Positions 378-10,018 of a stretch of DNA of 15,287 bases are shown piece by piece. The notes beneath the pieces were generated by a model. It ran no database searches and was not told where the DNA came from. It saw only the letters and a list, made by a program, of their open reading frames with translations. The DNA is taken from contig SHMQ01000043.1 in the NCBI GenBank assembly GCA_008534395.1, positions 1 to 15,287 of the forward strand. The letters run 5' to 3'. A program made the translations under genes and the position numbers. The DNA is from Candidatus Acidulodesulfobacterium acidiphilum (lineage in GTDB: Bacteria > SZUA-79 > Acidulodesulfobacterales > Acidulodesulfobacteraceae). Positions within the stretch are counted from its first letter, which is position 1, and each line of letters starts with the position of its first letter.

Positions 378-1733
378 ATGTTGTCAAAATTAAATAAATT
401 TATTTCTTCGGTTAAACTCGCAGTTTTTCTTTTTATAACAATCGCCGTTGTTGCCATAATAGGTACGTTTATAAATCAAGGCGATTCAATAAAACAGTAT
501 AAAACAATTTTCTCTCCGACGACTTATCACGTATTATACTGGCTCGGTTTTTTAAATATTTACGATTCGTGGTATTTTATAGCTCTCGCGCTTCTTTTAA
601 TGGTCAATCTTATAGCCGCATCGGTAAATTTATTTCCGCGTACGATAAAAGCGGTATTCGGTCCTTACCCTTCTTTTAAAGAAGTATCGGAAAAGAAAAA
701 TAATAAAGCGGTATATGAGACAATCGAAACAAAAAAGAAACCTGAAGAAGTAAAAGAAGTTATAGGTAAAAAATTCGGGACATTGCTTGATCAAAAGATA
801 AACGAAAGCAAAAACGGGACGGAACTATACTATTCTAAAAATTCTATTTTCAGATTTTCGCCTTATATTGCCCATATAAGCGTAATAATAATTATTATAG
901 GAGTATTGTTAAACTTTAAATACGGATTCAGGTCATATACCAACATTAAAGTTGGAGAAAAAACAAACGTTACGTACCTTTTAAAAAATAACAAGCCGAT
1001 TAAGCTTCCTTTCACGATAAGACTTGACAAATACCGCACGACTTATTATCCCGACGGGATTCCTAAGGCTTACATAAGCAAAATTAGCATAATCGAAAAA
1101 CATATAAGAATTTTGACAAAAAATATTGAGGTAAACCATCCCTTAACTTATAAAGGAATTACTATATATCAGGCAAGCTATGGGCATTATAAACCCGATA
1201 AATACGGTATTTTAGTAGTTAATTTACGACATATTAAATCTTTTAAAAAAATAATATATGCATCGATTGGAAAATATTATAATTCTAAAATAAATAACAT
1301 TAAATTTATGTTGGTCAGGGTTGTTAGAAAAGATAAAATGCCGTATTTTCCTTTTGTTATTAAATTAAATAATAAAAAAATTTTAAATTTTAGGATTATA
1401 CGGGTTAAGAATCACAATTTCCCCCTTATTATAGCAAGATATAAAAATATAGGTTTTATAATGACTCCGCAATTAAAAACTTATTATTATAGCGGCGTCG
1501 AAATATCTAAAAATACATACGTTTCTATAGTTTGGATAGGATGCATAATTCTTGTTATTTCTTTATTTTTTTCATTTTTCTTTAATCATGAAGAGACGTG
1601 GGTATCGATATCCGGTATTAATGACGGTAAAAAAACAAAGATTGAAATAATTTCTATACCGAAAAAGAAATTTAATTCTTTTTACAAGAAATTCGCTCAA
1701 AAAATTAACGAACTAAAAAAATACTTAAATTAA
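378..1733 (+). CDS. resB: ResB-like cytochrome c biogenesis protein (System II)
   Basis: This is the ResB/Ccs1 half of the System II (Ccs) machinery, which with CcsA delivers heme to apocytochromes c outside the cytoplasmic membrane and supports its attachment to CXXCH cysteines. The 451-residue protein has the family layout: membrane segments at about 14-31, 62-82 and 163-180, a large extracytoplasmic domain at about 185-380, and a last membrane segment at 384-402. His166, at the start of the third segment (AHIS), is placed like the conserved heme-binding histidine of the family. The tail after 402 is basic and cytoplasmic. The ATG at 378 gives a normal N-terminus (first segment with GTFINQ) but lacks an SD; the short frame at 297-367 may couple translation to it. 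ccsA follows after 34 bases on the same strand. Confidence 0.88.
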   Translation: MLSKLNKFISSVKLAVFLFITIAVVAIIGTFINQGDSIKQYKTIFSPTTYHVLYWLGFLNIYDSWYFIALALLLMVNLIAASVNLFPRTIKAVFGPYPSFKEVSEKKNNKAVYETIETKKKPEEVKEVIGKKFGTLLDQKINESKNGTELYYSKNSIFRFSPYIAHISVIIIIIGVLLNFKYGFRSYTNIKVGEKTNVTYLLKNNKPIKLPFTIRLDKYRTTYYPDGIPKAYISKISIIEKHIRILTKNIEVNHPLTYKGITIYQASYGHYKPDKYGILVVNLRHIKSFKKIIYASIGKYYNSKINNIKFMLVRVVRKDKMPYFPFVIKLNNKKILNFRIIRVKNHNFPLIIARYKNIGFIMTPQLKTYYYSGVEISKNTYVSIVWIGCIILVISLFFSFFFNHEETWVSISGINDGKKTKIEIISIPKKKFNSFYKKFAQKINELKKYLN

Positions 1734-1767: not shown

Positions 1768-2664
1768 ATGATTTCTCCAAATATATCCGTCCTTGACGGA
1801 TCCTTATATTTTACTGTTTCGCTTCTTTTTATTTTCGCTTCTTTTGTTTGTTATTTTATTTTTTTATTTACGGGAAACAAAACTATATCGAAAATTGCCT
1901 TTGGCATTTTAATTACTGGCTTTATAGTTCAGACGGCGGCATTCGTTATAAGATGGATATATGCATATAAAATAGGGATTGATACGCCGCCTTTGGTCGA
2001 TTTATACGACTCTTTGGTATTTTTTGCCTATATCATTGAAGCAGGCTATATATTATTAAGAATTTTTTACGATTTTGACGCCCTTGGCTTTATAATTACG
2101 TTTATTGCATCAGCGGCGCTTGCTTTTGCAACTTTTTATCCGCTTGCGACAAGCGCAATAGAACCTACTATTCCTGCATTGCAAAGCTACTGGCTTCTAT
2201 ACCATATTATGACTTTATTCGTTGCTTACGGAGCATTTGCAGCTTCATTCGGATTAGGAATACTTTATTTAATAAAAAACTCTAGAGAAAACGTCGATAA
2301 AAAGCGTGAAAATAGATTTTTATCGCTTTTGCCGGAGTCTACAGTAATAGAAGAATCAATTTATAAAGTAATATCGGTAGGACTGGTTTTTTTAACTGCA
2401 GGAATAGTAATAGGAGCTGCATGGGCGGACAGCGCCTGGGGCGGTTACTGGAGCTGGGATCCTAAAGAGACATGGTCTCTAATAACGTGGATGACGTACG
2501 TTTTATTTATTCATGCAAGATTTACTAAAGGATGGGGCGGCAAAAAAATGGCTTGGATAGCCGTTATTGGGTTTGCGGTCGTTATATTTTGCTATTTAGG
2601 AGTGGATTTGATAATCCCGGGATTGCATTCATATGCAACGCCTGGATCGAGTCCTATTTTATAA
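1768..2664 (+). CDS. ccsA: CcsA/ResC-type heme handling protein (System II)
   Basis: This is the heme-handling partner of ResB, called CcsA, ResC or CcsB in different nomenclatures. The 298-residue, multi-spanning membrane protein carries the tryptophan-rich WWD heme-binding motif at about 224-238 (WGGYWSWDPKETW). Histidines flank it: His146 (LLYHIM) and His287 (GLHSYA) are placed like the axial heme ligands of the family, and His249 lies just after the motif. Length is normal for the short CcsA form with a separate ResB. The ATG at 1768 follows AGAGG at 1755-1759 with 8 bases between. It is almost certainly co-transcribed with resB. The pair would mature any c-type cytochrome in this cell, including the cytochrome c domain of the kinase at 4628-6454. 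Confidence 0.93.
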   Translation: MISPNISVLDGSLYFTVSLLFIFASFVCYFIFLFTGNKTISKIAFGILITGFIVQTAAFVIRWIYAYKIGIDTPPLVDLYDSLVFFAYIIEAGYILLRIFYDFDALGFIITFIASAALAFATFYPLATSAIEPTIPALQSYWLLYHIMTLFVAYGAFAASFGLGILYLIKNSRENVDKKRENRFLSLLPESTVIEESIYKVISVGLVFLTAGIVIGAAWADSAWGGYWSWDPKETWSLITWMTYVLFIHARFTKGWGGKKMAWIAVIGFAVVIFCYLGVDLIIPGLHSYATPGSSPIL

Positions 2665-4054: not shown

Positions 4055-4585
4055 TTAATTTCCGTAGCTGCCGTCCGGAGACATTGAGGGCATAACAGCC
4101 TCCTGCAATATGGAATTATTTTCGTAAATATACTGCATTATATAAATTACTTTCCCTACATTTCTTCCGTACTGCAATTTTTCGTAAACGTTAGGTACGT
4201 ATTTTAGAGTTTTAAACAGTATCGGATAACCGTAAAGATTTTTTTCTATTAAAGTGCTTAAAGGTATTACCGCAGAATTATTAGAAATAGCAAACTCCAG
4301 CCAGCATACTCCGCCGGCATTAAAAACCGCTTCGTATTTAACTTTGTTTATCTTATATTCATATGCCGTTATACCGGAATTTTTATAATTATACTGAGAC
4401 AGGTCCGGCTGTATAATATAAAGTTTTTTCAAAGAAATCTTCCGCATTTTGTATTTTGACTGCATATTTTTTAAAGTGCCGCCTACCGCCGCGTAAACTT
4501 TATTGCAGTTAATAAAATTTAACGCAAACAGCATACCCGCCGCAATAAATGCAAAAATTAAATTTTTTTTAATAATAATTTTCAT
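4055..4585 (-). CDS. Small secreted protein of unknown function
   Basis: I do not recognise the family. The 176-residue product starts with a clear Sec signal peptide: a lysine-rich N-region (2-7), a hydrophobic core to about 26, and a likely signal peptidase I site after KVYA (29-32). The mature part of about 143 residues is basic, rich in Tyr, Asn and Lys, and has one cysteine (Cys94), so no internal disulfide is possible. Cys27 does not sit in a good lipobox (Asn precedes it). The ATG at 4585 has a strong SD, AAGGAG at 4598-4593, 7 bases away. It is 42 bases downstream of the cytochrome-kinase gene and ends that operon, so it may act with the kinase's extracytoplasmic domain; this rests on position only. 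Confidence 0.75.
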   Translation of the reverse strand: MKIIIKKNLIFAFIAAGMLFALNFINCNKVYAAVGGTLKNMQSKYKMRKISLKKLYIIQPDLSQYNYKNSGITAYEYKINKVKYEAVFNAGGVCWLEFAISNNSAVIPLSTLIEKNLYGYPILFKTLKYVPNVYEKLQYGRNVGKVIYIMQYIYENNSILQEAVMPSMSPDGSYGN

Positions 4586-4627: not shown

Positions 4628-6454
4628 TTATTTTAAACTTTCCAACCAGCCCGCAATCTGAGCGACTTCTTCTGCCGGCATATTTGGATTAGGCGGCATT
4701 GAAGAACTCGGATGCGTAATCTGATTTTCTATCTGCGCATAACTTAATTGCGAACCGATGTGGGAAAGGCTGTAACCGCCCTGTTTTCCTTTACCTAATA
4801 TAACGTGGCAGTAAAAACATCCAGACATATCGAAATCTTCATAACCTGGACCGCTAAATACCGAAGCTTGAGATTGCGGCTGAGGCTGCGGTATCGGCCG
4901 AAATCGAGGCGCTGTTTTTGGTACAGTCTTGCGATAATAACGATAATGATGAACAGCAGTATTTTGATTCGGCGTAGGCAAAATATATGTATTATTAGAC
5001 GTCTTATTGACATGCTTCTTACCTGTAATTTTATTTTTGTTTTTACTATTTTTATGATTGTTTTTAGAATGTTTTTTTGATTTTAACAGTTTTTTTAAAG
5101 CTATTGACTTGCCTGAATTAACGCTTTTATGTTTTTTGCCATAAGAAAGGTACCTAAAATAAAAAAAATAGCCTGCTGCAGCTAAAATTGACGCAAAAAA
5201 TATAATTGCCGCTGCTAAAATATATAAATTGATTTTATTTTTAGAACCGTAATTGTTATAATTTACGTTAGAATTTGCGTTAAAATTTACATTTGCTGAT
5301 TCAGCATTTTTATTTGCATCTGTTTTATTATTTAAATATCGATTATTTTTAACTTCAGAAAAATTTGACGACTCTTCGTAATCAGTCCTGATATTTTCAG
5401 GGGGAATATTTTTTGACTGTTCAAATACAATTGCCTGCTTATCCTCTCTATGCTTAAATTGGCTATCGGCATCCGGCGTATTTTGAATTTCAGGTATATT
5501 TAGTTCTTGTCCGACTAAAACTTCGGATTTTTCTAATCCGTCTAAAAGTTTAAGCAATTCCTCCGTATTTTTTATCCTTTCCGGTATTTTTACCGTCAGT
5601 CCTTTATTTAAAATATCTTTTAATCCTACGCTTATTCCCGTAAAATCTATGCCTATTCCTCCTGCTAATTCGGTAGCTTCAGGAGGAGGAAATCCTTTTA
5701 AAAGAGCGTAAAGCGTAGCACATATTGCATAAACATCGGTATATTCGCCTCTTTTACCCTTACCTCCGTATTGCTCTAAAGGAGCATAGCCCGGAGTTAA
5801 AATTTTTTCGTAAGTCTTAGTTTTATCCGCCGTAAACACCCTCGAAGAACCAAAATCTATAATTTTAATATCTTCGCCGGTTTTTACTATAATATTTTCC
5901 GGTTTTATATCCTGATGCAGCATGCCGGCGGCATGTATTATTCCTACTGCTTTAGCTATCTGCTTTATATATTTAACGGCTTCATTTTCTTTTACTTTCC
6001 CTAAAAGAGATAACAGAGAAGTTCCTTCTATATATTCCATTACGATATAAACGGTGCCGTTTTCTTCGATTACATCGTAAACGTCCACTATCCAAGGATT
6101 TTTTAATTTTGCTATAGATTTTGCTTCATTTTTAAAATTTTCTATATTTTCTTCGTTGTCGCGGGTAGGCGGAATTGTAACTTTGCTTCCTGTTCTGACG
6201 GCTATTCCGTCGGGAAAATATTCTTTTATCGCAACTTTTCTTTCTAATTTTTCGTCATAAGCAAGATAAGTTATTCCAAAACCGCCCTGCCCTAAGACCT
6301 TTTCTATTTTATATTTTAAAAAAACAATACTCCCGCTATCGAGCGGCGTGCAGGAATAGCTTTCTCCCAAAGCGGCAGATATATCTCCTCCGCAAACCGG
6401 ACATTTTTCTGCGTTATCGGGTATAACGGAGGAGCAATAAGGACAATCCTTCAT
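4628..6454 (-). CDS. Membrane Ser/Thr kinase fused to a cytochrome c domain
   Basis: The 608-residue protein is a Hanks-type Ser/Thr kinase with an unusual sensor. Order of parts: zinc ribbon at 4-21 (CPYC and CPVC pairs); kinase domain at about 48-308; membrane segment at 409-433; K/H/N-rich then P/Q-rich linker at 439-530; cytochrome c domain at about 535-608. The kinase looks active: glycine loop GQGGFG (55-60), Lys77, Glu110, Asp182 and Asn187 in LHQDIKPEN (Gln in place of Arg, so HQD), DFG at 200-202, and the activation segment PGYAPLEQY. The last domain has one CXXCH (Cys546, Cys549, His550) and Met586 or Met592 as possible sixth heme ligand, followed by a terminal helix typical of class I monoheme cytochromes. 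Topology puts the heme outside the membrane. The start lacks an SD, but no other start keeps the zinc ribbon. Confidence 0.92.
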   Translation of the reverse strand: MKDCPYCSSVIPDNAEKCPVCGGDISAALGESYSCTPLDSGSIVFLKYKIEKVLGQGGFGITYLAYDEKLERKVAIKEYFPDGIAVRTGSKVTIPPTRDNEENIENFKNEAKSIAKLKNPWIVDVYDVIEENGTVYIVMEYIEGTSLLSLLGKVKENEAVKYIKQIAKAVGIIHAAGMLHQDIKPENIIVKTGEDIKIIDFGSSRVFTADKTKTYEKILTPGYAPLEQYGGKGKRGEYTDVYAICATLYALLKGFPPPEATELAGGIGIDFTGISVGLKDILNKGLTVKIPERIKNTEELLKLLDGLEKSEVLVGQELNIPEIQNTPDADSQFKHREDKQAIVFEQSKNIPPENIRTDYEESSNFSEVKNNRYLNNKTDANKNAESANVNFNANSNVNYNNYGSKNKINLYILAAAIIFFASILAAAGYFFYFRYLSYGKKHKSVNSGKSIALKKLLKSKKHSKNNHKNSKNKNKITGKKHVNKTSNNTYILPTPNQNTAVHHYRYYRKTVPKTAPRFRPIPQPQPQSQASVFSGPGYEDFDMSGCFYCHVILGKGKQGGYSLSHIGSQLSYAQIENQITHPSSSMPPNPNMPAEEVAQIAGWLESLK

Positions 6455-6555: not shown

Positions 6556-8175
6556 CTATGCAATACGCTTAATAACAAGGGCGGTCGCATTATCCGGAGC
6601 GCCTTTTTCTATTGCGTAAGAAACAAGCGCATCTGCTATATATTGAGCGCCGAATTTATTTATAGTGCCGCAAACATCACCATCGTCGTTTTTTGCCTCC
6701 GAGTATTCAATGCCGATGCCGCAAGCCGAACCGCTTAAAATTTTCATTATATCCTTCTCTTCCAACTCCGACCATATTCCGTCGCATACTATTAAAACAA
6801 TATCGCCAATATTTAAATCTTCCGTTTTTTTTCCTATAATTTTTTGTAAATCGTCAAAATATTCGCTCTGCCTGTTTCTTACTACTCCCAAGGATTTTAA
6901 AATTTTATTTCTGTCAGGGCTTATTCTTGCTTCTTCTTCGGTCATATTGCCGCTTGATACCATAAGCGAAACATATGAATGATCTTTAGTAAGCCTTTTT
7001 AATTTACATTCGGATTCAGCATTAACCCATAGATAAGCCCTTGAATCGCCGACATGAGCCAAAGCAAACGTCTCGTTTTTAAAAATAATGCCTATAAAAG
7101 TACAGCCGCCGTCTTTTCCTTGAAGCTCGTCGAATACGCTTTTATTTGCCTGCCATGCCGAATCTATTACGATATCGTTAAGGTCTTTAGAAAAATTTTC
7201 GGCGTTCTCGGAACTTTTCAAAAAACCTTTAACGGCAGCCGTGCTTGCATATTCTCCGGCCGCCATTCCGCCCATACCGTCCGCAAGGCATGCTTTTAAC
7301 ATGACGTTTTTTTCGCTAAAATTTATATTGTTTTCGATAACGTAACCGCAGGCATCTTCATCTACAAGCCTATCCGGATTTAAGCCTACGGACGAAGATA
7401 TTCCTATATCGAATCTTACCGCCGCTTTTCTTTCTTCGTTAATATTTTTTAAATAACCGATTGCTTCATCGATATTAAATCTCTCTTCCCGCCTTGAAAG
7501 CGTTTTGGATAAAAATTGAGGGAAACCGGGTATTTTTATATTGTTAATATAATCGGGAACATCGATATCGTAGGTATTTATATTATCTCCGGTTAAAAAC
7601 TTATAAGCAATAAGCCCCAGTATGTAAACCCCCTCTTTTCCAGTTGCGATATCATGCATTAAAACTTCAGGAGCGACGGAATCTCTCGGTGAAAACATCT
7701 TTTTTCCAATTTCCGATAAATCGGGCAGTATATTCAATTTAATTTTGTCGCCGTAAACATATAAAGAATCAGGATTGATATACAGCAGAGATATTCTTTG
7801 TTCGTTAAAAAACTTAATAATTTCCGCCAAATCGGAAATATATTTTACTATTAGGCCGATTTCTTTTTTTGAAGAAGGAATTTTAAATTCGTATTTCTTA
7901 TATTCCTTGTCCGCCGAAATTATTATTTCATTGTCAGTACAAAGCAAAATATCGGGCAGGGCGGAACATCCAAGAATGTCTTTCCATAAGCCGCAATTAC
8001 CCCTGTAATACAGAACCGATTCTCCCGCATTATTTTTAGCCGAATGCCATCCTTGTATAAAAGGACCATCGATTTTTAAATTAACGCCGGCGGCGTTAAT
8101 TATATCGCCTTCTTTTAAAAACTGCGTTTCGGAAGCCGCCGAATATATTTTTTCTTCAAGGTTTTGCCTATGCAT
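6556..8175 (-). CDS. Pseudokinase-PP2C phosphatase fusion
   Basis: The C-terminal half (about 255-539) is a complete PP2C metal-dependent Ser/Thr phosphatase: the DRLVDED start, ADGMGG (298-303) followed by GE (307-308), GCTFIG (358-362), HVGDSRAYL (374-382), LTKDHS, DG at 465-466 and GAPDNATALVI (526-535). The metal-binding aspartates Asp299, Asp465 and Asp528 are present. The first half (about 105-246) follows the order of a kinase C-lobe but has lost its catalytic residues: NPDSLYV stands where KPENILV would, ILPDLSE where DFG would, then VAPEVLM for the APE motif, EGVYILGLIAYKFLTG for the DVYSLG helix, and RREERFNIDEAI. No glycine loop is visible. It lies 101 bases upstream of the kinase and probably opposes it. 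The ATG at 8175 lacks a clear SD. There are no membrane segments. Confidence 0.9.
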   Translation of the reverse strand: MHRQNLEEKIYSAASETQFLKEGDIINAAGVNLKIDGPFIQGWHSAKNNAGESVLYYRGNCGLWKDILGCSALPDILLCTDNEIIISADKEYKKYEFKIPSSKKEIGLIVKYISDLAEIIKFFNEQRISLLYINPDSLYVYGDKIKLNILPDLSEIGKKMFSPRDSVAPEVLMHDIATGKEGVYILGLIAYKFLTGDNINTYDIDVPDYINNIKIPGFPQFLSKTLSRREERFNIDEAIGYLKNINEERKAAVRFDIGISSSVGLNPDRLVDEDACGYVIENNINFSEKNVMLKACLADGMGGMAAGEYASTAAVKGFLKSSENAENFSKDLNDIVIDSAWQANKSVFDELQGKDGGCTFIGIIFKNETFALAHVGDSRAYLWVNAESECKLKRLTKDHSYVSLMVSSGNMTEEEARISPDRNKILKSLGVVRNRQSEYFDDLQKIIGKKTEDLNIGDIVLIVCDGIWSELEEKDIMKILSGSACGIGIEYSEAKNDDGDVCGTINKFGAQYIADALVSYAIEKGAPDNATALVIKRIA

Positions 8176-8244: not shown

Positions 8245-8799
8245 TTAGAAGTTGAACATAAAAAGCATATTGCCTAATGATACTTCGTCTCCGTTATTTA
8301 ATTCGACCGGTTCTGTAATTCTGGACGAAAATTTCTTAGCCGAAGCAGATTTTACAAAAACGCCGTTTGTGGAACCTGCGTCGGAAACGAACCATTTACC
8401 GTTTTCAAAAATAAATTTAGCATGTTTCCTCGATATATGCTCGTCTCCGGAAAATCCCGACAAATCGATATCTATAGGCCCCGTCGACGAATCGAATCTG
8501 CCTGCAATCAGATAATTAGATTTTAAATCAAAAAATTTATCCGTTAAATTACCGTCTATTTTAAATGTTAAACGCGCAGGTTTAAACTCGGCAAGCCGTT
8601 CTGGTTTTTCTTTAATTTCCGATAAATTACCGTCGGCACCGGATTGGTTTTCATTTAAGGTTTTAATATTATTAAGCGAAGATTTATTTAAGTTTATATT
8701 TTCTTCAGTCATTTCAAAATCTATTAATTCGGAACCGTCTATATTGCAAAATTTCTTATCGTCCGTAAACTTTTTTCTACATACAGGGCATATTTTCAT
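8245..8799 (-). CDS. FHA-domain protein with N-terminal zinc-ribbon half
   Basis: This is a 184-residue cytoplasmic phosphothreonine reader. Residues 4-24 resemble a zinc ribbon (CPVC, then KFCNIDGSEL), but the second pair has only one cysteine (Cys18), so metal binding may need another ligand or be lost. A polar, likely disordered stretch follows (30-75). The FHA domain fills 77-184 and keeps the binding residues: GR at 100-101, SRKH at 123-126, and STNG at 143-146. The start has AGGAGG at 8810-8805, 5 bases before the ATG. It lies between the VWA gene (79 bases upstream) and the PP2C gene (69 bases downstream) on the same strand. It is probably the adaptor that recruits proteins phosphorylated by the neighbouring kinase. 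Confidence 0.92.
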   Translation of the reverse strand: MKICPVCRKKFTDDKKFCNIDGSELIDFEMTEENINLNKSSLNNIKTLNENQSGADGNLSEIKEKPERLAEFKPARLTFKIDGNLTDKFFDLKSNYLIAGRFDSSTGPIDIDLSGFSGDEHISRKHAKFIFENGKWFVSDAGSTNGVFVKSASAKKFSSRITEPVELNNGDEVSLGNMLFMFNF

Positions 8800-8878: not shown

Positions 8879-10018
8879 TTAAATTCCGGAAAGTTTTCTA
8901 ATCTGCTCGTCGGAAAGTTCGTTTTCCTGACTAATTTTTATTGTTTTTGTTTTTGAACCTATCCTTAAAGTTTTCGACGTACCTATGCTTATAGTTTTAT
9001 TTTCTTTTATTTCATCCTGCGCCTTCTCTATTATTTTAGTCATAGCGCTATTGCCGAGCTTAACGGTCATACGTTTTGCCATATCTAAAGTTTTAGAGGC
9101 GTTAGAAGGATCCTCGCCCGCTTCTTTTAATGCTTTTTCCAATAAACTGCCTACGTTTCTTTGCTGAACCCACTGCATTACTTCGTTATTAACAACCGAC
9201 GCCTTGGATTCGTCCATGGTAAACTCGACAATAACGTCTTCCGGAGGGTTTTCTCCGCGGTAATTGCCGTCCGGCATATCGTAAGTTAAACTTAACTGCA
9301 TAAGACGCGATTTGATGGGTTTGCGTTCAGGCAAAGTAGATTCTATTATAAAAACGCTGTTTCCTTCGGGATTTATGCTGCCGAGAAAATGAGGTTTTAT
9401 ATTTATATCGACCTCGGAAACTTCGGGATAAACCTTAGTTATCCTGTCGACTGTTACGTCTTTTACGGTATTTAACGTAAGAGATAGCGCCGTTAAAGTT
9501 TCATTAACGGCATGTTCTAATTCTTTTATCATAATATCAGGTATCTCAGAGGGTTTTATAACTATTCCCGATGCATCGTCTCCGCCGTTAGCCGAAGCAT
9601 AGTAAGGTTTGCCTTGCGTTTTATCGGTAATAAAAGAAATAAGATTTTCATTCCAGTCTTCGCCGATTCCAACGGCTATTAACGGTATATTTAATTTTGC
9701 CAGTTCCAGCGACATTTCTTTTACCAAATCCTCGTCGGAGGTCTGCCCGTCGGTAAGCATTATAATCTTTCTATTTCCGGTTTCTTTAGAAATTAAATCT
9801 AAAGCTTCTTTCATTCCTGCGCCCATAGAAGTGCCGCCGCTGTAATTTATAAGTCCGTCTATTGCATTCAATATTAAATCCTTATTTTTACTCTCTATAT
9901 TAACGAAAGGCAGTAAAACGTCGGCTTTATCGTCAAATTTAATAAGGCTTACCCTGTCGGTATTTTTCAATTTTGACGAATTAACAAAGTTTTTCAACCC
10001 ATCTATTAAAATCGGCAA
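8879..10018 (-). CDS. VWA-domain protein, N-terminus missing
   Basis: The visible 379 residues contain most of a von Willebrand A domain (about 1-160), with GGTSMG (61-66) and the [11 protein letters not shown] strand (87-97). The DXSXS metal-site motif that should start the domain is absent: homology begins in the following helix ([11 protein letters not shown]). The TTG at 10018 is therefore only the first possible start after a break, not a true one. A beta-rich middle (170-270) and a helical part (275-340) follow. The tail carries KTISI, KTLRI and KTIKI at 341-362, each a T-x-x-I motif. It is the first gene of the leftward kinase operon and a candidate phosphorylation target that the FHA protein could bind. 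The upstream part of the gene and the operon promoter are not in this window. Confidence 0.85.

Follow-up and report, generated by a model that had tools for sequence, protein, structure and literature searches.

The window, the whole stretch of DNA analysed here, is 15,287 nucleotides long and constitutes one entire contig of a 2.1 Mb genome. The dsrA gene of this genome scores over the cut-off, which fits an order known from acid mine drainage, Acidulodesulfobacterales (PMC6776010), although placement of the genome there is inferred. On the minus strand lies a gene for a kinase whose extreme C-terminus is a cytochrome c domain, accompanied by genes for phosphatase, FHA and VWA proteins. Features of the window are given below, with positions numbered from its first nucleotide and residues numbered along the kinase protein.

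378 to 1733, plus strand: ResB, cytochrome c maturation system II (PF05140, E 9.6e-72)
1768 to 2664, plus strand: CcsA, cytochrome c maturation system II (PF01578, E 1.3e-47)
4055 to 4585, minus strand: 176-aa secreted protein of unknown family, encoded after the kinase gene (no Pfam match)
4628 to 6454, minus strand: transmembrane Ser/Thr kinase with C-terminal cytochrome c domain, 608 aa (ORF, Pfam, 10-sequence alignment)
4631 to 4864, minus strand: class I monoheme cytochrome c domain, residues 531–608, at the very C-terminus (PF13442, PF00034, structure profiles)
4697 to 4699, minus strand: Met586, predicted axial heme ligand, in the motif SSMPPN (invariant; aligned with Met61 of c551)
4805 to 4819, minus strand: heme c attachment motif CFYCH, residues 546–550 (invariant in 10 kinases)
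4865 to 5155, minus strand: Lys-rich low-complexity linker, residues 434–530, presumed periplasmic (low identity among orthologues)
5156 to 5227, minus strand: single transmembrane segment, residues 410–433 (hydropathy 2.37; found in all homologues despite sequence drift)
5525 to 6334, minus strand: Hanks-type kinase domain, residues 41–310 (PF00069; HQD replaces HRD; GYAPLEQY activation segment as in PpkA)
6380 to 6454, minus strand: N-terminal zinc ribbon, residues 1–25, Cys4, CPYC...CPVCGG (Cys invariant in 10 sequences)
6556 to 8175, minus strand: PP2C phosphatase with degenerate kinase-like N-terminal half (PF00481, E 4.4e-11)
8245 to 8799, minus strand: zinc-ribbon/FHA protein, by prediction a likely phospho-Thr reader or substrate (PF00498, E 1.6e-13)
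8879 to 10018, minus strand: VWA protein, its gene lacking the 5′ end in this assembly (PF00092, matched from profile position 25; 465 aa in L038)

The kinase open reading frame begins with ATG and is uninterrupted over its 608 codons. Pfam family PF00069 (Pkinase) matches residues 48–306 (E 8.2e-40), and the catalytic Lys77, the loop H180-Q-D182-x-K184-P-x-N187 and the DFG at 200–202 are invariant across the 10 aligned genes, as is the GYAPLEQY motif. The protein is thus a Hanks-type Ser/Thr kinase by fold and by its catalytic Lys, HxD and DFG, of the non-RD kind given HQD at the catalytic loop, while phosphorylation of Ser/Thr residues is inferred. Zn_Ribbon_1 is matched by 9 of the 10 kinase homologues, with the window protein scoring under the curated cut-off. 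A juxtamembrane region of variable sequence separates the kinase domain from the membrane segment, and the linker beyond that segment is about 75–150 residues long. Pfam finds no PASTA repeats in the window kinase, and searches with PADLOC and NCBIfam returned generic kinase matches only, with nothing pointing to a defence system. The preliminary description, made from sequence alone, had proposed an intact Hanks kinase with an N-terminal zinc ribbon, one membrane segment and a C-terminal CXXCH domain with candidate Met ligands. All of these elements held when assessed by ORF, Pfam, alignment and hydropathy; CXXCH lies exactly where it had been placed (4805–4819), Met586 is a credible ligand (see below), and only the domain span, put at residues 535–608, needs slight correction to about 531–608.

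Several lines of evidence identify the tail as a class I cytochrome c. When excised, the domain scores over both Pfam cut-offs, with 29.2 against 27 for PF13442 (Cytochrome_CBB3) and 26.1 against 21.3 for PF00034 (Cytochrom_C). One caveat here is that in a scan of the whole protein the cytochrome families score slightly under cut-off, and hence the passing scores pertain to the excised domain only. By Pfam, the tail contains no Cache/DUF3365 domain; cytochrome c families alone match. Alignment places Met586 on the axial ligand Met61 of Pseudomonas cytochrome c551, within a common MPPN loop. CXXCH followed by an axial Met in an MPP-type loop, at a spacing of 36 or 37, meets both criteria for class I cytochromes c. 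An 11-sequence profile, combining the tails with the genome's own small cytochromes, matches solved structures of c551, c552, c6, and bc1 and cbb3 subunits; a 7-sequence profile of the tails found no match in the PDB. Structure prediction of the C-terminal domain, suggested as a check in the preliminary description, was run with AlphaFold, which had only 7 sequences to work from and gave a mean pLDDT of 47, too poor for use. The fold assignment therefore rests on the sequence profiles. The tail has CXXCH, the MPPN ligand loop and a C-terminal helix region in common with the small class I cytochromes (c551, c552, c6) and with cytochrome-c-tailed respiratory proteins. Unlike these proteins, it is joined through a linker and a membrane segment to a kinase, and is encoded within a signalling operon. 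In 30,000 shuffles of the kinase protein, CXXCH appeared 41 times (0.14%), and together with a suitably placed Met 8 times (0.03%). A chance origin of the motif is in any case irrelevant, because it is conserved in all homologues.

Among non-fused proteins, the tail is closest to small cytochromes that the organism itself encodes (43–49% identity), and the domain was therefore probably derived from the organism's own electron carriers. The tails form a separate clade. In a family-wide profile search, 14 places score at E ≤ 5.3e-37, followed by a gap to 3e-15 for the other cytochromes of the family. These 14 comprise 10 intact kinases, one interrupted kinase gene (G027), one remnant (G028) and two Hsp70-linked fusions. 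Within the clade, the domain is found only fused to membrane-anchored proteins or as the remnant of such a fusion.

To gauge constraint on the tail, we compared homologues drawn from 61 genomes plus a genome collection; full-length homologues came from the same genus and family. CFYCH, Met586, Pro587, Pro588 and Trp603 are invariant in all 10 aligned kinase genes, and the histidine of CXXCH is separated from the Met by 36 residues in every case. Loss of CXXCH and Met from homologues had been named in advance as an outcome that would refute the cytochrome reading, and this is not what we see. Nei–Gojobori dN/dS values are 0.02–0.12 for the cytochrome domain (where computable) and 0.07–0.16 for the kinase domain, compared to 0.4–1.0 for the juxtamembrane region and 0.2–0.6 for the linker. 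Similarly, the linker is only 45–48% identical to those of the nearest orthologues, whereas the folded domains on either side are 94–96% identical. These data show that the cytochrome domain is under strong purifying selection, about equal to or beyond that on the kinase domain. The low dN/dS of the cytochrome domain next to a looser linker indicates a working part under constraint in the former and a tether in the latter.

Heme c is attached outside the cytoplasm, making the orientation of the protein a key issue. We infer an N-in/C-out topology, since an ATP-dependent cytosolic kinase precedes the single membrane segment, which would place the tail outside. Furthermore, the same tail occurs behind one membrane segment on both the kinase and an unrelated Hsp70/GrpE-linked domain (see below), each expected to be cytosolic. 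Flanking charges do not favour this orientation. Net charge is +2 to +7 in the 20 residues after the membrane segment versus +2 to +4 in the 20 before it, and the Lys-rich stretch that follows the segment runs counter to the positive-inside rule. This objection is weakened by L073, where a membrane protein of this family has two CXXCH domains joined by a Lys-rich linker of net charge +11, with no obvious membrane segment between them. The kinase–cytochrome gene and the system II genes resB and ccsA share one contig. Multi-pass membrane proteins with two CXXCH domains linked by a Lys/Ala-rich stretch are encoded at L073:551–2389 and L075:1333–3186.

Across the family, gene order is conserved with minor losses: VWA, zinc-ribbon/FHA, PP2C, kinase–cytochrome, 176-aa secreted protein. 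The PP2C protein retains its acidic metal-site motifs, while the kinase motifs of its N-terminal half are degenerate (YINPDS), an architecture also conserved in the family. Many loci have a PilB/GspE gene upstream of the cassette, and in one genus the locus is followed by prepilin genes. In one kinase locus, a gene for a protoglobin-HD domain protein, a heme gas-sensor type, sits between two VWA genes (L041:3552–4733). The upstream end of the cassette is abnormal in the window: at 10004–10012, a 9-bp microhomology joins the interior of the PilB gene to the interior of the VWA gene, and relative to L038 ∼1.44 kb is absent, namely the 5′ ends of PilB/GspE and VWA, with their starts, and the region between them. 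The join is either a real deletion or an assembly error. If real, this copy of the operon lacks its usual promoter region, making its expression in the window genome uncertain. The kinase gene itself is unaffected by the join.

Among solved kinases, PpkA (5hnv) is by far the closest (E 1.2e-38), the next being 11 orders of magnitude weaker (1.2e-27); the PP2C protein also matches PppA (6jkv), more weakly. PpkA is a transmembrane kinase whose extracytoplasmic sensor is a VWA domain (PMC3224232); it dimerises and phosphorylates the FHA protein Fha, and PppA reverses this reaction (PMC10482370). Like the PpkA–PppA–Fha pathway of type VI secretion, the window has a transmembrane receptor kinase with a PpkA-type kinase domain, including the common APxEQY segment, and PP2C and FHA proteins encoded alongside. 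The two differ in that the periplasmic domain of the window kinase is a cytochrome c rather than a VWA domain, VWA being encoded as a separate protein, and in that the window PP2C carries a kinase-like N-terminal half. Moreover, the type VI sheath protein VipB/TssC was not found in the genome, which is rated 100% complete. With a cytochrome c where PpkA has VWA, and no VipB in the genome, the cassette is not a member of the PpkA/type VI system. By analogy, the VWA/FHA/PP2C/kinase set most plausibly works in a PpkA-like way. VWA, PP2C and kinase also make up the TerY-P triad, in which a TerY-type VWA protein is associated with a zinc-ribbon kinase.

The window kinase resembles the receptor kinases PknB, PrkC and PknD in having a cytosolic Hanks kinase domain, one membrane segment, an extracytoplasmic sensor and a cognate PP2C nearby (PMC6213207). 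In those proteins the sensor is built of PASTA repeats or a β-propeller, whereas here it is predicted to be a covalent heme protein of ∼78 residues. Neither heme nor cytochrome comes up in a review of Hanks kinases, where PASTA and propeller types are given as sensors (PMC6213207). Sensors with heme c are themselves known, as Cache domains (DUF3365/Tll0287) and the PAS-type domains of Geobacter GSU0582 and GSU0935 (PMC12889525, PMC3460858), and these too consist of an extracytoplasmic CXXCH domain fused to a signalling module. However, their carriers are histidine kinases, chemoreceptors and cyclic-di-GMP enzymes, whereas in the window a Hanks kinase bears a complete class I cytochrome c. The supposition that no kinase with covalent heme c had been described held within the literature searched, where we found no Hanks kinase with a cytochrome c or heme c; no domain-architecture database stands behind this, and hence a known entry elsewhere is not excluded. 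We also looked for kinase–cytochrome fusions outside the family, in 386 relatives and domain-wide genomes with the tail profile, in 193 genomes of one phylum and in two further phyla. None was seen among the larger proteins inspected (cytochrome b–c, multiheme, peroxidase and membrane respiratory proteins), although this is a limited genome sample and not a census. What appears to be undescribed is the use of a class I cytochrome c as the sensor of a Hanks kinase, with sensing itself being inferred; heme-c sensing as such is already known on other receptor types.

The reading that we favour, as somewhat more likely than not, is that the protein is a PpkA-like transmembrane receptor kinase whose extracytoplasmic, His/Met-ligated cytochrome c reports the redox state of its heme. 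The data show how the protein is built, that its heme-c residues are conserved, that the domain is under purifying selection and that PP2C, FHA and VWA genes are linked to it, and in these respects support the earlier suggestion that the kinase reads redox state, a gaseous ligand or periplasmic electron flow. Sensing remains an inference, as do heme attachment, topology, redox exchange, dimerisation, kinase activity, FHA phosphorylation and output; direct evidence is lacking for heme binding, for sensing and for kinase activity. In the model we envisage, ResB/CcsA would attach heme to the tail in the periplasm, and the heme would be reduced or oxidised by the small homologous periplasmic cytochromes or by envelope redox chemistry. 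Its redox state would alter self-association of the tail or its binding to a partner, with the flexible Lys-rich linker acting as tether, and the state of the tail would in turn control dimerisation and trans-autophosphorylation of the kinase. The kinase may then phosphorylate the FHA protein or its partners, with PP2C as the off-switch. Judging from the neighbouring PilB and prepilin genes, the first candidate for an output would be type IV pili or a secretion machine related to them. If heme is attached and controls the kinase, there would be a direct route from electron flow in the envelope to Ser/Thr phosphorylation, and a cofactor-bearing sensor would join the repertoire of receptor-type Hanks kinases. 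Such control would lend itself well to testing, with an enzyme activity as output and an input adjustable by redox buffer.

The alternative that survives best, possible but ranking below the redox reading, is that the cytochrome domain serves in docking or localisation, binding a respiratory complex or pilus part and thereby positioning the kinase without any redox control. The long flexible linker suits tethering, prepilin and PilB genes adjoin the locus, and the TfcP protein of Myxococcus, a periplasmic cytochrome c, functions for type IV pili with no evident role in electron transport (PMC8833165). However, TfcP has unusual His/Cys ligation whereas the tail retains the canonical Met, and the heme-ligand residues of the tail are kept as strictly as in electron carriers. 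Less well supported, and in our view unlikely, is a gas sensor, in which NO, CO or sulfide would displace the axial Met and ligand binding rather than redox state would drive the kinase. Heme-c Cache domains fused to signalling modules do behave as NO sensors (PMC12889525), and the protoglobin-HD gene between VWA genes at L041 is consistent with gas sensing. Against this, Cache domains have a different fold, and as a class I cytochrome c the tail is ordinary, its Met ligand being conserved throughout, which favours electron exchange over ligand binding. We hold little hope for an inside-out scheme, in which the tail is a membrane-tethered electron carrier and the kinase controls the transfer. 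Homologous domains do terminate cytochrome b and peroxidase proteins, where they carry electrons, but the tail resides in a phospho-signalling operon at 10 loci and on an Hsp70-linked protein at two, and the operon lacks any oxidoreductase gene. Finally, a cytoplasmic C-terminus or apo-domain, with heme c never attached and CXXCH a relic or binding something else, draws support from the positive-inside counts but can practically be dismissed, given the invariant CXXCH, Met and spacing, the low dN/dS, and the Lys-rich linkers that join heme c domains elsewhere in the family.

As indicated above, the redox receptor proposed here may not be confined to kinases. In G004 and G023, the same tail is attached, behind a membrane segment, to an unrelated domain of ∼200 residues, encoded directly behind GrpE and Hsp70 genes. 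These operons, GrpE – Hsp70 – unknown domain–TM–cytochrome c, lie at L047:5142–8633 (G004) and L046:3737–7298. Both non-kinase fusions carry CLYCH as the heme motif, and their tails are 58–65% identical to the kinase tails and 77% identical to each other. The Hsp70 cassette of G004 (L047) and the kinase cassette of G008 (L042/L057) have the same flanking genes, with transporter genes on one side and the 176-aa gene and beyond on the other. Because the two Hsp70-linked tails are most alike, whole cassettes, rather than N-terminal parts alone, seem to have been exchanged. A bolder reading, to which we would give clearly less than even credence, is that the membrane-anchored cytochrome c is a plug-in redox receptor of the envelope, attached by this family to cytosolic outputs of quite different kinds. 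In most carriers the output would be a PpkA-like phospho-signalling cassette; in two it would be a chaperone cassette with Hsp70 and GrpE, one of these lying at the chromosomal site that a kinase cassette occupies in a relative. That kinase and Hsp70 cassettes have been swapped while the tail stays the same points to a sensor module that can be transferred, and offers a natural control.

Within the genus, the kinase cassette is patchy. It is absent from the G002 site that corresponds to the window's (L053, G002:C83, 8218–10459), where the ammonium transporter gene abuts the 176-aa gene and PilB, VWA, FHA, PP2C and kinase genes are all missing. In G027 (L056), the kinase gene is broken by an in-frame stop ahead of the membrane segment, and in G028 (L048) only a truncated VWA gene and a tail remnant are left. 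In most relatives, the 176-aa gene comes after the kinase or the Hsp70 cassette. An AlphaFold model of its product was unusable (pLDDT 53). A distant homologue of the 176-aa protein is encoded in L054, near PilB and a prepilin-like gene.
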